DNA of 64,000 bases from Rhodanobacter humi (GTDB lineage: Bacteria; Pseudomonadota; Gammaproteobacteria; Xanthomonadales; Rhodanobacteraceae), in assembly GCF_041107455.1 (NCBI RefSeq), contig NZ_JBGBPY010000001.1:3348001-3412000 (forward strand). The letters run 5' to 3'. Numbering within the stretch: the first letter of the stretch is position 1; each line of letters starts with the position of its first letter. Below are positions 2,939 through 49,432 of this stretch, one piece after another. The position numbers and the translations under genes are program-made. Under the pieces are notes generated by a model. That model was not told where the DNA came from and ran no database searches. It saw only the letters and a program-made list of their open reading frames with translations.

Positions 2939-5900
2939 ATGAATTTCAGCAGGAATATTCCGCTGCGACAGACCGGCCTGGCCACGGCGCTGGGTCTGTT
3001 GCTGGCGTCCACGGCCGCCTACGGCCAGTCCACCACCAGCAGCATCTTCGGCCGCGTGCCGGCGCAGGCCGGCGAAAGCGTGGTGGTCAGCAACGGTGCG
3101 GGTCTGACTCGCACGGTCAGCGTCGACAGCCAAGGCCGTTACAACGCCACCCAGCTGCCGGTGGGCACGTATTCGGTGAGCCTGATGCGCGACGGCCAGG
3201 TGGTGCAGCGGCGCGACAACGTGACGCTGAAAGTGGGTGTCGGCGCGGACATTTCCTTCAGCACGGAAGCCGCCGCCAATGCGGCGAACGCGAAGCAGTT
3301 GTCGGGTGTGAGCGTGTCGGCCAGCGCCGTGCCGCCGATCGACGTGAGTTCGGTGGACTCGCGCACCGTCATCACCGCGCAGGAACTGGCCCGGCTGCCG
3401 CTGGCGCGCTCGGCCGAAGCCGCGGCGTTGCTGGCGCCCGGTGCGGTGACCGGCGCGGGCGGCGCCACCAGTTACACCGGCGAGCCGCTGGTGAGCTTCG
3501 GTGGCTCGTCGTCCACCGAGAACGCGTACTACATCAACGGCTTCAACTCCACCGATCCGTTCAATGCCTTTGGCGGCATCACCTTGCCGTACGGCTCCAT
3601 CGACCAGGAAGAGGCCTACACAGGCGGCTACAGCGCCCAGTACGGACGCAGCGATGGCGGCGTGCTCAACATGATCGGCAAGAGCGGCACCAACGAATGG
3701 CATTTCGGTGCCCAGGTGGTCTACACGCCGGAGGACGGGCGCTCCGCCCAGAACAGCACCTACTACATGAATGGCCTGCCGACACCGGCGGTGGCGGGGC
3801 GCCTGTACGACCCCAATCGCGATGACAACTACTGGACCTCCACCTACGACCTGTACGTGGGCGGCCCGCTCATCAAGGACAAGTTGTTCCTGTTCGCCTC
3901 GGCGGAGGTCAACGACACCGGCGGGTACACGGTCAACCCGGTGACCTCGGGCACCTCGCTGCACTACAAGAACAGCAACCCGAAGTGGTACGCCAAGGTC
4001 AACTGGAACATCAACGATAGCAACCTGCTGGAATTGACCGGCGCGTCCGAGAAGCGTCTGACCTCGGGTTCGTACTACTACTACGACTACAACAACCTGG
4101 CCGACAAGGGCTTCAAGGCCTTCGCCAACGACACCAAGCTGGGCGGCGACATGTGGTCGGCCAAGTACACCAGCTACCTCACCGACAGCCTCACGCTGAA
4201 CGCCATGTACGGCAAGATGACCACGGTGAACTACAACGAGCCGGTGGGTTACAACTCCAGCCTCACTTATGTCGGCGGCTACACGAACCAAAATCCTGCG
4301 CTCAACGGCGGGACGCCGATCACCAATGCCCAGACCATCTCCACGATGGGCAACCCGGCCGACAACTACAAGACCAGCAACCTGCGGGTCAGCCTGACCT
4401 ACGCGCTGGGCAGCCATACCATCACCGGCGGCATCGACAACCTGCGTTCCAGCGCCAACAACCAGGGCAACATCACCACCGGCCCAGGCTATTACTGGAG
4501 CTACGGCCACACCACCAATCCGGGCGCCCCCTTGTCGCCCACCCTGGGCGTTCCTGCGCTGGCCGGCTTCCCGAACGGTGCCGGCGGCTATTACGTCACC
4601 AAGAACGTCAGCTTCTCGGTGGGCGGCCTGACCACGACCCAGCGTGCCGAGTACATCGAGGACAACTGGCAGGTGAGCGACCGCTGGCTGGTGTCCATCG
4701 GCCTGCGCAACGACGGCTTCACCAACTACAACGGCGGCGGCCAGCCCTACATGCGGCAGACCTCGCCACAGTGGGCGCCGCGCCTCGGCTTCAGTTGGGA
4801 CGTGTACGGCGACGGCACGTTCAAGGTGTTCGGCAATGCGGGTCGCTACTACCTGGGCCAGCCGCTCGCCCCGGGTGGTCCGGCCAACGGCTACGTGCGC
4901 ACCTCGCAGTACTACACCTACAGCGGCATCGCGGCCGACGGTACGCCCACCGGCCTCACGCAGGTCTCTGTCCCGGTGTCGGCGAACAACGCGTTCGGGC
5001 AAATCCCCGACCCGCGCACGGTCACGGTGCACAACATCAAGGCGCAGGATCAGGACGAGTTCATCCTCGGCTTCACCAAGACTGCCGGCGACAAGTGGGT
5101 CTACGGTGCCAAGTTCACCCGGCGCATGCTGCGCCACAACCTGGACGACTACTGCAATGCGCAGGCCGTGGTGGACAAGGCCGCCTCGATGGGTATCAAC
5201 GACGTCAACGACGCCACCTGCTACTACATCAACCCGGGCGTCGCCAACACCTTCGCGGTGCAGGATGCGAGCGGCAACTTCCACGACGTGACCCTGAGCA
5301 ATAAGGAGATGGGCTTCACCCACATGGTGCGCCGCTACTACGCGCTGGAAGGCTTCCTGGAGCATCCGTTCGACGGCAAGTGGTACGGCAAGGTCAGCTA
5401 CATGTTCTCGCGCAGCTACGGCAACACCGAGGGCCAGGGCCAGTCCGATATCAAGGCCATTGGCGGCATCCAGAACATGGACTGGGATTTCCCCGAGCTG
5501 ATGGTTTACGGCAACGGCCCGCAGGGCAACGACCATACCCATCAGATCAAGGCGTTCGGCTACTACCAGATCAATCCGGAATGGCTGGTGTCGGGCAACC
5601 TGAGCCTCGTGTCGGGCGGCCCCAAGTACTGCCTCGGCCTGTACGGTACCAATCCGTACGATCCGGCCACCAACGATCCGGATGGTTACGGCTCTGCCTA
5701 CCACTGGTGCAACGGCCAGCCGTCGCCGCCGGGGAAGAACGGGCGCCTGCCGTGGACCAAGCAGGTTGATCTGGGCGTGCAGTACCGGCCGGCGTTCGCG
5801 GACCACAAGCTGGGCTTCCACCTGGACGTGTTCAACGTGTTCAACGGTCAGGCGCCGCAGAACCTGTACGCGGAGATGTATCAGGACAGCACGGGCACGC

Positions 5901-22348: not shown

Positions 22349-24343
22349 ATGCACCTGGATCGGCGCATGCCTTTTGCGCAGACACTGCTGAGTGAATCCC
22401 TCTCCCTCCGGGAGAGGGTGGCAGCAGCCGGGAGAGGGTTCGGTCGGAGCGAGGTACTGCGGCAAGTCCGAACCCTCACCCCCAACCCCTCTCCCATGGG
22501 GAGAGGGGCTTTGCATCACGGGCTTGCGCTTGCTGCGCTGTTGCTGTTGCCGTTCGCATCCCATGCGCAGACCCTGCGCGTCACCCCGACGGGCTCGGCC
22601 AGTGGCGCCTGCGGGGCCGCGTCGCCCTGCAGCTTGCAGGCCGTGCAGGCGCAGGTACGCGCGTTGCGCGCCCAGGGTCACGACGGCATCACCGTGCAGT
22701 TGCAGGACGGCACTTATCGCCTGCAACAGCCGTTGCAATTCGATGCCTCGGACAGCGGCGCAGGCGGCCGTCCCGTGCGCTGGCAGGCCGCGCCAGGCGC
22801 ACATCCGGTGCTGTCCGGCAGCCGGCTCGTGCAAGGCACGCGCGATGGCGCACTGTGGAGCTTCGCGTTGCCGTCGAGCGATGCACCGTCGAGCGTCTAC
22901 ATTGATGGCCAGCGCCGCTGGCCGTCGCGCAGCGAGGCTTGCCCGCATTGCGTGGTGGATGCCAAGGGCTTGTCGAACGTGCCGCGGGCGATCCTGCACA
23001 GCTTGCAGGTCGGCTCATTGGCGGTGATGCACGAGCGTTGGCGCGATTTCCGCTGCGGCGTGGTTGTGGTGGGACAGGGCCGCGTCGATCTTGCCCAGCC
23101 GTGCTGGCACAACGCCGCGCTGGACTCGGTCAAGAACGGCTGGTCGGTGGCCAGCCCGGTGGGCAAGTACTACGCCGGCGTGGACTGGTTCGAGAACCTT
23201 GCCGGCGATCCGTCTGCGCCCGGCAGCTACACGGTGGATACGGCACACCGCGTGCTGCGCTATCGGCCGTTGCCCGATGAAGCCACGCAGGTACCTTCCA
23301 TCGAACTGCCCGCACTGGAACAACTGCTGGTGCTGAAAGGCACGCCCGGGGCGCCGGTGCACGACCTGGTATTCCGCGGCATCGGCTTTGCCGGTACCGA
23401 ATGGCGCAAGCCGGAATCCGTCGATGGCTACGTGCCCCTGCAGGCGGGCTATCTGGTCGACGGCAACAGCCGCACCGCGCTGCCCGACAACGGCGAGGGC
23501 ATGACGCGCATAGGCAACGCGGTGGACGTGGAGGCCGGTCGCGACATCATATTCGACCACGACAGCTTCCAGCATCTCGCGGCGGCCGGCATCGCGTTGG
23601 CGGCAGGCACGCACGGCGCGGCGGTGACGAACTCGCGCTTCACCGACATCGGCGGTGGCGGCGTGTTCGCGGGCGATACGGAGGGGCATCCTGCGGATCC
23701 GGCCAGCAAGTCGTCCAACATCGTGGTCGCCGACAACCGCATCGACCACGTGGCGCTGGCGTACCGCGACAACGTGGCGATCATGGCCGGTTTCGTCAAC
23801 GGGCTCGTCATCGCGCACAACACCATCAGCGACTTGCCGTACAGCGGTATCTCGGTGGGCTGGGGCTGGGATTACGAGGGCGATGCGCCGGTGCAGTCGT
23901 CCATCCACATCGTCGCCAACCGCATCGAGCGCGTGATGCTGCAACTGGCCGATGGCGGCGCGATCTACACTCAGGCGCAATCGACGCCAGGCACCTCGTG
24001 CGTGGTGCGCAACGTCGCCGACATGCGCCATAGCGGCGAAGGCAACGGCATCTACCTCGACGAGCACAGCACGTACTTCGACGTGAAACACAACGTGGTG
24101 CTCGGCAGTTGGGTGAGCGCCTGGGCCTCGTGGAGCGGCCACCTGCGCATCACCGACAACTGGACGGACGACGCCGGCAAGCCGCACAACCCCGGCCCCA
24201 CCAAGCTGTGGTCACCCAATTTCACCTACCTGAAAACGCTGCCGACGGCGGCGTTGGCGGTGCAGGGCGCGGCGGGCGCAAGGGACGGCCAGCCCGAACC
24301 CGCGTTGCCCATCCGCGTGCCGACCGCCTGCCCGAACCCATAG
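22349..24343 (+). CDS. Right-handed parallel beta-helix protein (GH141-like?)
   Basis: The first ATG (22349) follows a good AGAGGAAA site 27 bases after GH89 and gives 664 residues. Residues ~15-52 are the translation of a palindromic repeat (RTLTPNPSPMGRG). The real export signal follows it (LHHGLALAALLLLPFASHA), so ATG 22496 (615 residues) may be the working start. The mature protein begins with VTPTGSASGACGAASPCSLQAV and has a WFENLAGDPSAPGSYTVD segment. Many beta-helix turns follow (VVADNRIDHV, LVIAHNTISDL, IHIVANRIERV). The layout resembles GH141-type fucosidase/xylanase proteins, but polysaccharide lyases and GH110 share the fold. No catalytic residues could be fixed. Confidence 0.72.
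   Translation: MHLDRRMPFAQTLLSESLSLRERVAAAGRGFGRSEVLRQVRTLTPNPSPMGRGALHHGLALAALLLLPFASHAQTLRVTPTGSASGACGAASPCSLQAVQAQVRALRAQGHDGITVQLQDGTYRLQQPLQFDASDSGAGGRPVRWQAAPGAHPVLSGSRLVQGTRDGALWSFALPSSDAPSSVYIDGQRRWPSRSEACPHCVVDAKGLSNVPRAILHSLQVGSLAVMHERWRDFRCGVVVVGQGRVDLAQPCWHNAALDSVKNGWSVASPVGKYYAGVDWFENLAGDPSAPGSYTVDTAHRVLRYRPLPDEATQVPSIELPALEQLLVLKGTPGAPVHDLVFRGIGFAGTEWRKPESVDGYVPLQAGYLVDGNSRTALPDNGEGMTRIGNAVDVEAGRDIIFDHDSFQHLAAAGIALAAGTHGAAVTNSRFTDIGGGGVFAGDTEGHPADPASKSSNIVVADNRIDHVALAYRDNVAIMAGFVNGLVIAHNTISDLPYSGISVGWGWDYEGDAPVQSSIHIVANRIERVMLQLADGGAIYTQAQSTPGTSCVVRNVADMRHSGEGNGIYLDEHSTYFDVKHNVVLGSWVSAWASWSGHLRITDNWTDDAGKPHNPGPTKLWSPNFTYLKTLPTAALAVQGAAGARDGQPEPALPIRVPTACPNP
22397..22508. repeat. 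CTCTCCC repeat block inside the 5' end of the beta-helix gene
   Basis: Two hairpin units, CCCTCTCCCTCCGGGAGAGGG and the CCCCTCTCCCATGGGGAGAG pair, flank an ~80-base spacer. The spacer has inverted AGCCGGGAGAGGGTTCGG and CCGAACCCTCACCCC arms. The block lies between the ribosome-binding site and the signal-peptide codons and keeps the frame open. Confidence 0.7.
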
Positions 24344-38210: not shown

Positions 38211-38301
38211 CCCCCATCCGCCTTCGGCACCTTCCTCGCTCCTCAAAGCTGGCGCCATCCCTGGCGCCTCCCCGCGCACCCCCGCAAGCGGGGGAAGGGA
38301 G
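38211..38301. repeat. Solo half-copy of the CCCCCATCCGCC repeat
   Basis: This 90-base segment between convergent genes is the reverse complement of the right half of the repeat blocks at 44089-44314 and 44697-44898. It shares CCCCCATCCGCC, CTTCCTCGCTCCTCAAAG, the GGCGCCA/TGGCGCC palindrome and CCCCCGCAAGCGGGGGAAGG. It may also serve as a bidirectional terminator. Confidence 0.75.
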
Positions 38302-43945: not shown

Positions 43946-44088
43946 ATGTGCTTCCTTCCCCCCTATACGACAGCGGAAAGCATCGTCGAAGTCGATACCT
44001 TCGCTGTGGCCGGGGTTCCTTCCCTCGTGCGACGGGAGAGGGAAGCACTTGCCGGTGCCGGCGGCTAACCTCGCGGCTGCCATGCCTG

Positions 44089-44314
44089 GCCCCCATCCGC
44101 CCTGCGGGCACCTTCCCCCGTGCGACGGGGGAAGGAAGGGTTCGCCGGTGCCGGTTGTGCGGCTGATCCCGCGGTCTCCGTTCCCGTGCACGACTTTCTT
44201 TCCGGGCGGAAGACGCAAGCCTTCCTTCCCCCGCCTGCGGGGGTACGCGGGGAGGCGCCAGGGATGGCGCCAGCTTTGAGGAGCGAGGAAGGTGCCCGCA
44301 GGGCGGATGGGGGC
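44089..44314. repeat. Left repeat block flanking the DUF559 gene
   Basis: The 226-bp block is bounded by a perfect 27-bp terminal inverted repeat (44089-44115 and 44288-44314, beginning GCCCCCATCCGCCC). Inside are the palindromes CTTCCCCCGTgcgACGGGGGAAG and GGCGCCA/TGGCGCC. Its right end stops one base before the DUF559 stop codon. Together with the preceding bases it fills the 420-base gap after the NlpC/P60 gene, in which no other gene is seen. Confidence 0.8.
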
Positions 44315-44315
44315 A

Positions 44316-44660
44316 TCACCGCCCCATCTCCAATGCCTGCAGGATCCTCGCCAGCACCTGATCCGTCCGTTCAAGCACGTCGTGATTCCAGCATCGCACC
44401 ACGATGAAACCATGCTGCCTGAACCAGTCGTCGCGGCGTACGTCGGCTGCCGAGTCCAGATGCTGCGAGCCGTCGACCTCGACGATCAACTGTCTTTCGA
44501 TGCAGGCGAAGTCGGCGATGTAGCTTCCCAGCGGATGCTGGCGGCGAAAGCGGAAGCCGGCCAACTGGCGGTGGCGCAAGCGCGCCCAGAGCCAATGTTC
44601 CGCCTCGGTCATGTCACGACGCAGCTGGCGTGCGTAATGGAGTTTCGCACCCTCGCGCAT
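44316..44660 (-). CDS. DUF559 (Vsr-like) endonuclease-domain protein
   Basis: The protein has 114 residues and starts at ATG 44660. It contains the DUF559 pattern: KLHYARQLRRDMTEAEHWLW, LRHRQLAGFRFRRQHPLG, YIADFACIERQLIVEVDGSQH and RDDWFRQHGFIVVRCWNHDV. Asp50 and the Glu61-x-Asp63 group form a PD-(D/E)XK-type nuclease site as in the Vsr mismatch endonuclease. The biological role of the family is not known. The gene is packed between two copies of a terminal-inverted-repeat element, leaving one base at its 3' side and 36 at its 5' side. Its promoter must therefore lie in or beside the repeat. Confidence 0.88.
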   Translation of the reverse strand: MREGAKLHYARQLRRDMTEAEHWLWARLRHRQLAGFRFRRQHPLGSYIADFACIERQLIVEVDGSQHLDSAADVRRDDWFRQHGFIVVRCWNHDVLERTDQVLARILQALEMGR

Positions 44661-44696
44661 GAGCCTTCCCTGGTTTGGTGGAAGCTTCAGAGGCTA

Positions 44697-44898
44697 GCCC
44701 CCCATCCGCCCTTCGGGCACCTTCCCCCGTGGGACGGGGGAAGGAAGGGTTTGCCAACGTTGGCTGTGCGGTGAATCCCACGGCTGCGGGCGGAATGCGC
44801 AAGCCTTCCTTCCCCCGCCTGCGGGGGTACGCGGGGAGGCGCCAGGGATGGCGCCAGCTTTGAGGAGCGAGGAAGGTGCCCGCAGGGCGGATGGGGGC
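44697..44898. repeat. Right repeat block flanking the DUF559 gene
   Basis: The 202-bp block is bounded by 27-bp terminal inverted repeats (44697-44723 and 44872-44898; one GC/TT difference in the left arm). The right ~90 bases (44808-44898) are identical or nearly so to 44218-44314, while the middle differs from the left block. It occupies most of the 312-base gap between DUF559 and the rhomboid gene. Confidence 0.8.
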
Positions 44899-49285: not shown

Positions 49286-49432
49286 ACCGTTCGCCCTGAG
49301 CGTAGGCCCGGAGGGCCGGAGTCGAAGGGTATTGCGGCGACGCTTCGACTTCCTCGCTCCTCAAAGTCAGCGCCATCCGTGGCGCTTCCCCGCGTGCGCT
49401 TGCTATCGCAAGCTACGCTCAGCGCGAACGGT
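49286..49432. repeat. 147-bp chimeric inverted-repeat element
   Basis: The 20-base ends ACCGTTCGCCCTGAGCGTAG (49286-49305) and CTACGCTCAGCGCGAACGGT (49413-49432) pair with a single mismatch. Inside, 49349-49397 carries the core of the other repeat family (CTTCCTCGCTCCTCAAAG, GCGCCATCC, TGGCGC, TCCCCGCG). It lies between the convergent fghA and rapA genes. Confidence 0.7.

Follow-up and report, generated by a model that had tools for sequence, protein, structure and literature searches.

The locus described here raises the question of what relation a gene of the DUF559 family, a widespread family without agreed function, has to the repeats between which it lies, and palindromic repeats have themselves been a long-standing puzzle where RAYT is absent. 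In the window, which is the whole stretch of 64,000 nt of the Rhodanobacter humi genome (G000) that was analysed, an NlpC/P60 gene and a rhomboid gene are the neighbours on either side of the DUF559 gene, and a block of some 200 bp, its ends inverted and nearly perfectly matched, lies on each side of it (Table 1). The initial annotation read these blocks as two elements with 27-bp terminal inverted repeats, a trait of MITEs and transposons. The inverted ends are real, with perfect 28-nt arms in the left block (44089-44116 and 44287-44314) and 27-nt arms of 96% identity in the right block (44699-44725 and 44871-44897), but the blocks are not terminal-inverted-repeat elements; each is composed of two repeat units placed tail to tail, and the inner units box the gene. 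The left block, ending at 44314, stops one base before the gene as had been described, because the ORF occupies 44316-44660 of the minus strand, and the distant partial copies that had been pointed out are also real.

Table 1. Positions of the DUF559 gene, of the repeat units around it and of related copies in the window
Feature	Positions	Strand	Remarks
DUF559 (PF04480) gene	44316-44660	-	114 aa, Vsr-like PD-(D/E)XK nuclease; ORF list, PF04480 E=6e-38
Inner left unit	44224-44313	-	Head towards gene; head 44305-44313, then hp1, then hairpin
Inner left unit hairpin	44224-44232		CCTTCCCCC; arm broken by insert
Inner right unit	44698-44744	+	CCCCCATCC + hp1 + CCTTCCCCC hairpin; head towards gene
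Outer left unit	44090-44135	+	Type as inner units; head away from gene
Outer right unit	44808-44897	-	Head away from gene; insert as in inner left unit
Degenerate half copy of unit	44013-44061	.	82% vs 44106-44154
Distant partial copy	38211-38301	-	92% match
Distant partial copy, insert part	49349-49395	-	89% match
Solitary unit, other (CCCTCACCC/CCCTCTCCC) type	22473-22507	+	Genome place 3370473-3370507

The right halves of the two blocks (44203-44314 and 44787-44898) are 98% identical over 112 nt and the left halves (85 nt) 85% identical, and the 25-nt terminal motif has four matches in the window versus none in 100 dinucleotide-preserving shuffles. The inner right unit (44698-44747) folds at -17 kcal/mol with a z of -3.3, and the outer left unit (44090-44138) gives a z of -3.9. 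Inside the arm of the units at 44224-44313 and 44808-44897 there is a hairpin insert of about 45-50 nt (GCTCCTCAAAGC..GGCGCCATCCCTGGCGCC..CCCCGCG, minus strand), for which about 38 further places in G000 are found among the matches listed.

In each unit of the two blocks, a C-rich head (CCCCCATCC) is followed by two hairpins, a small one and a larger one (CCTTCCCCC/GGGGGAAGG); in general, a unit has a C-rich head and a pyrimidine/purine hairpin, with a middle part between them that is either short or itself a hairpin. Heads are most often CCCTCACCC, CCCTCATCC, CCCCCATCC or CCCCCACCC; judged by these commonest heads of the DUF559-flanking units, no GTAG or CGTC tag precedes the palindrome. Usually the head mirrors the hairpin arm, except that one T is replaced by A, as in the arm/head pairs CCTTCCCC/CCCCATCC, CCTTCTCCC/CCCTCATCC, CCCTCTCCC/CCCTCACCC and CCCTCCCC/CCCCACCC, and some heads are without any A. 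A reading of the head as a direct repeat was replaced by this mirror reading, because CCTTCCCC arms pair with CCCCCATCC heads. A head could be called in 170 units, and 148 of them keep the mirror rule (50.7 on average after shuffling, at most 70); counted per locus, the rule is kept by 83 of 101 (shuffled mean 28.9). Most exceptions are CCTCTCCC-type arms, which have their own head in 15 and another head in 13 of 28 cases; on the tail side, head-like strings occur 16 times and are of the matching type in seven. When the combinations of head and arm were counted genome-wide with the first and second search patterns explained below, matched combinations numbered 2754 and 737, respectively, versus 32 and 10 swapped ones.

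Head and arm are therefore linked according to these matched and swapped counts, a triplex being only one reading of the linkage, which taken alone could be plain descent. The mirror form, recurring across several types, suggests a G-rich third strand lying antiparallel on the purine arm with the middle part as linker; the hairpins are what was folded computationally, and a purine-motif triplex would come on top of them, with a G-quadruplex as the alternative fold of the G-rich strand. No duplication or inversion would make a mirror symmetry, and therefore a folded DNA structure is probably under selection.

The window genome has six PF04480 matches, four of them full-length, and when the letters were read directly all four full genes were found to sit between units. 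A strict hairpin finder detected hairpins on both sides of three of these genes and on one side only of L001, where an insert lies in the other hairpin; the three full genes other than that of the window have mainly a second type of unit, with the CCCTCACCC head and the CCCTCTCCC hairpin. Searching the own genome with the left block, as the initial annotation had proposed for its terminal repeat, gave 51 matches including self-matches (40 of 72 candidates scored), and the strict first pattern gave 37 units. Among the 30 of these 37 units whose surroundings were read, a second hairpin was present within 140 nt on the head side in 17 and on the tail side in none, and in all three strict pairs less than 150 nt apart the heads face each other. 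Such head-to-head pairs of G000 have the layout of the DUF559 element minus the gene; in other families, the pairs may run in opposite order. One pair (L195) may sit within a protein-coding gene. At another place (L184), the left flank has a sequence of about 190 bp (query 3549-3741) with dozens of places in the sister genomes G305 and G312, which is another repeat family.

Boxing of the gene was examined more widely using the best 80 of 495 DUF559 homologues from bacterial and archaeal genomes, a sample in which relatives of the window protein are over-represented and which includes contigs labelled Chloroflexi, Eisenbacteria, Moranbacteria and Acidimicrobiales, which come from metagenome bins and could be mis-sorted. 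One locus (L090) was left out of the flank alignment because its flank was too short, leaving 79. When the 350 bp on the left were aligned to the reverse-complemented 350 bp on the right, the score was at least 40 in 52 of the 79 loci (27 scored below 40) versus 5 of 1501 shifted control windows of the same loci, and the alignment in direct orientation was found in 24 of 79. Adding the four genes of the own genome and 29 loci of the phylum census described below gave a set of 113 loci, 111 of which have a pyrimidine-arm hairpin within 260 bp of the gene, versus 50 of 1170 shifted windows. The DUF559 homologues examined are thus generally accompanied by such repeats, the opposite of the outcome that the initial annotation had named as counting against its proposal. 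Hairpins on both sides were likewise commoner than at the control places (64 of 113 loci versus 3 of 1170 shifted windows), and in 44 of these 64 the hairpins to the left and right share one arm type (shuffled mean 14.3, maximum 26 in 5000 shuffles). Full units were assigned by the strict pattern to 84 of the 168 sides of 84 loci; the nearest full unit has its head towards the gene in 77 of 84 cases and away from it in seven.

Plasmid records with DUF559 number 44, and in six of the eight that were examined, picked by taxonomy, the inverted flank score is at least 37. By eye, C/G hairpins lie on both sides of the gene in L212, L213, L215, L216 and L217, which are Deinococcus or cyanobacterial plasmids, and a repeat on one side only is seen in L214; L216 has a direct-orientation repeat, and in the Deinococcus plasmids L212 and L213 the hairpin, not the head, is nearest to the gene. 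In the cyanobacterial plasmids L215 and L216, the DUF559 genes are flanked by several copies of CCCCTAAATCCCC-type hairpin repeats.

A census of 299 Pseudomonadota genomes was made with two search patterns, both written after viewing the DUF559 flanks and the second also after viewing the 29 loci of census genomes. Some PF04480 match was present in 112 genomes and a strong one (E<1e-12) in 86; the cut was chosen after the table was seen, and the 26 genomes with weak matches only were scored as negative. The first pattern was found in 70 of the 86 DUF559-positive genomes and in 13 of the 213 others (odds ratio 67, p=8e-39), the second in 47 of 86 and 2 of 213, and either of them in 78 of 86 and 15 of 213 (odds ratio about 129), eight positive genomes having neither. 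Counted by copies, 3298 of 3491 copies of either pattern, and 735 of 737 of the second, are in DUF559-positive genomes; the repeats are accordingly not equally dense in genomes without a strong match, which had been the other point to be checked. They are dispersed, with up to 228 copies per genome, and 62 of the 67 genomes with at least 10 copies have a strong DUF559 match. The reversed control of the first pattern had no matches in any of the 299 genomes, and that of the second had five matches in two genomes. Related genomes are not independent, and stratification by family, which corrects for this partially, gave p=1.7e-13 for 13 families, which were selected manually from the table; the families left out add nothing to this test because they have no variation in gene or repeat. 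Five of the 15 unit-carrying genomes without a strong match (G246, G173, G049, G215 and G018) have at least 10 copies, with 10-85 units each, and are candidates for gene loss or for a different mover.

The type of repeat also follows the lineage of the nuclease. In a tree of 113 DUF559 proteins, built from few columns and with 52 of 110 inner branches open, 105 rows could be labelled with an arm type, eight rows without a usable type being dropped and the nearer unit giving the label where the sides differ. The labels need 30 changes on the tree versus a shuffled mean of 56, and 29 versus 41 when one row per genus and type is kept, with none of 2000 shuffles as low in either case. Within Hyphomicrobiales there are nine changes versus 13 (4 of 2000 as low), and in Mesorhizobium the four types in 11 genes need three changes, which is the minimum (1 of 2000). 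The coupling is weaker in the beta/gamma rows (58 of 2000 as low) and none was seen in Sphingomonadales (2000 of 2000), where nearly all rows are of one type. The window protein groups, with a support of 84, with a Frateuria gene sharing its repeat type and not with the three other full-length genes of G000.

The coupling between DUF559 and the repeats is close to certain, and as far as coupling goes there is good support for the suggestion of the initial annotation, a REP/RAYT-like layout in which DUF559 may mobilise or maintain the repeats or be carried along by them, mobilisation being the part that we infer. The best explanation, to which we give a somewhat favourable judgement, is that the DUF559 gene and the C/G-rich hairpin units form a two-part mobile family similar to REP/REPIN with RAYT but with a Vsr-like PD-(D/E)XK nuclease, cleavage and transposition being presumed beside the observed association, lineage coupling and insertion polymorphism. 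That DUF559 is the enzyme which spreads the repeats seems to us a little more probable than that it is not. In such a family, the G-rich strand would fold into an intramolecular triplex, or a G-quadruplex, through the mirror of head and arm; the nuclease may recognise the unit belonging to it once this has folded, whether in single-stranded or in extruded DNA, and nick or cut it there, and repair or strand joining would then copy the unit-bounded segment elsewhere. The gene-less unit pairs would be derivatives moved in trans.

Insertion polymorphism bears both on this reading and on a homing-like one, in which gene-less repeats are cut by DUF559 and then acquire the gene through homologous repair, so that they serve as targets and safe sites and are not cargo. 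Three points would agree with homing: Vsr-like nucleases that act in homing are known, repeats adjoin the gene at almost all loci of the 113-locus set, and at the window site, where G000 has block, gene and block, the sister genome G305 has a single block without DUF559. We sought the joined flanks of the four G000 DUF559 sites in 60 relatives, and empty sites, as had been suggested for comparison, do exist: at the epmA-ligA site, the gene and the units are both present in G312 and both absent in the seven same-genus genomes that were aligned, and these seven relatives have no repeat there that could have served as a target. At the L001 and L003 sites, the DUF559 gene is absent in relatives, with degraded remains in some. 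Against homing there is also the finding that unit copy number goes with the presence of DUF559, and therefore the repeats themselves multiply; DUF559 is moreover rare in viral contigs (26 loci). Among 50,697 phage records, 2 have it. We regard the homing-like reading as unlikely.

Eighteen solitary sites were compared with G305 and G312, and four of them were aligned. The single unit of L188 is cleanly absent from both sisters, the pair of L196 is collapsed to a single hairpin in G305, and L171 and L175 differ from the relatives, but their junctions have diverged too far to be read. For the majority of the 18 sites, the relatives show a gap of similar length, so these insertions are probably shared. 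At the compared insertions no target-site duplication was definable, the junctions being too diverged. The E. coli ycjD gene was also tried as a clean empty site and was rejected, since no junction was gained; in the two ycjD-less genomes fetched, fabI is followed by a tetR-efflux operon. In this fabI-sapF region (L117, L167 and L168), ycjD, a DUF559 gene, follows fabI in K-12, where it has decayed repeats on its 3' side, and the tetR-efflux operon is found in two other isolates. The ycjD query was covered to at least 80% in 3364 of 5426 genomes.

The nuclease itself has conserved acidic residues as in the PD-(D/E)XK superfamily (E21, D50, E61 and D63), and the residues invariant over 46 DUF559 sequences include, besides these, G64, H67, D73 and R76. 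A solved relative by sequence is PDB 3hrl (E=1.8e-26), named endonuclease-like, and a search of a defence library gave no match. Such a protein might serve the host, as a Vsr-like or structure-processing nuclease that stabilises hairpin repeats, so that repeat-bearing genomes keep the gene. In Caulobacter, cells that have lost a cytosine methyltransferase mount an SOS response that requires the DUF559 protein VsrA, and VsrA is read as a mismatch-repair nuclease, according to the available part of the paper (PMC12907096), which agrees with host repair. The boxing of the gene by inverted units of its own lineage's type is left unexplained by it, however, as are the 0 to 7 DUF559 matches per genome within one genus, and we take host repair to be quite improbable.

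It is less probable still, in our opinion, that another enzyme moves the repeats with DUF559 as cargo. The gene is small, repeats do occur in genomes without a strong DUF559 match, and the available part of a Legionella study describes three large segments with a transposase and a DUF559 gene as recombination hotspots (PMC12308824), so that another enzyme can travel with DUF559. The only other gene family checked for repeat association was Y1/RAYT. Y1_Tnp (PF01797) is present in 155 of the 299 genomes, and the first pattern occurs in 40 of these 155 and in 43 of the 144 others, which is no association (odds ratio 0.82, p=0.44). The odds ratio between DUF559 and the first pattern is 69 in Y1-negative and 73 in Y1-positive genomes, and G000 has no PF01797 match at E<=0.001; RAYT as mover of the repeats was ruled out by this control. 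Neither the sharing of repeat type lineage by lineage nor the presence of DUF559 in nearly all genomes rich in copies is expected of cargo. Finally, a role of the repeats as ordinary terminators or regulatory elements of the DUF559 gene can hardly be entertained: they are stable hairpins near the gene, but they are dispersed, with up to 228 copies per genome, their heads are symmetric on both sides of the gene, and an Rfam scan of the window site gave nothing above the gathering score.

Returning to the two-part mobile family, its coupling gives both DUF559 and the palindromic repeats a testable role and, if the reading is true, there is a class of mobile elements with a repair-type nuclease as the only enzyme. 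In its most far-reaching form, which we consider tentative and somewhat doubtful, this would be a new class of bacterial mobile DNA in which one Vsr-like PD-(D/E)XK nuclease, acting without a transposase, recognises short units folded into an intramolecular purine-motif triplex and spreads them; every nuclease lineage would have a unit of its own, and such pairs would be present in Pseudomonadota as well as, with units of different sequence, in Deinococcota and Cyanobacteriota.

Among known systems, Vsr-like homing endonucleases are selfish genes with a related nuclease fold; the window gene differs in that its ORF stands alone between other genes and is enclosed by dispersed repeats. MITEs are short non-autonomous inverted-repeat DNAs beside a full-length relative, and short inverted-repeat DNA near a full-length element is common to both, but the DUF559 element is without a known transposase, and a target-site duplication was not found at the compared junctions. 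Caulobacter VsrA belongs to the same nuclease superfamily and carries the DUF559 domain; its paper, which proposes repair of 5mC deamination, does not contain the stem 'palindrom' in the main text (PMC12907096). The Legionella segments are alike in that DUF559 lies in repeated, recombining segments of one genome, and differ in being three and large, with a transposase; short hairpin units are unmentioned in the available part of that paper (PMC12308824). CGTC REPs are dispersed hairpin repeats, mainly of Alphaproteobacteria, for which the available text reports no dedicated RAYT or other dedicated enzyme and has no DUF-word in its main text (PMC3733652); both these and the DUF559 units are dispersed hairpins without a dedicated RAYT, and the two differ in tag and sequence. 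Searches of the open-access literature listed no paper tying DUF559 or Vsr-like genes to such repeats; the single text match to a repeat string is an E. coli upstream region printed in the appendix of an RNA tool paper, which contains a pair of such units, without remark in the part available (PMC7311995). The closest system is REP/REPIN with RAYT (TnpA-REP), in which, according to the available part of the source, inverted cognate palindromes enclose the gene, inverted pairs without a gene are scattered through the genome, and REP classes are cognate to RAYT genes with an abundance tied to the enzyme (PMC3686654). These traits are shared by the DUF559 system, in which the gene is flanked by inverted cognate units, gene-less pairs are dispersed, repeat abundance goes with the enzyme and repeat type follows its lineage. 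The differences are that the enzyme is PF04480 and not HUH/Y1 (PF01797), that the units lack the GTAG tag and have as head a long mirror of the stem arm, and that Y1 genes are unrelated to the DUF559-linked repeats. Because an HUH enzyme and a GTAG tag, the two defining features, are both absent, we do not file the DUF559 system under REP/RAYT; enzyme and repeat together would be categorically new, or, to a stricter reader, a variant of the idea of a REP and its enzyme.
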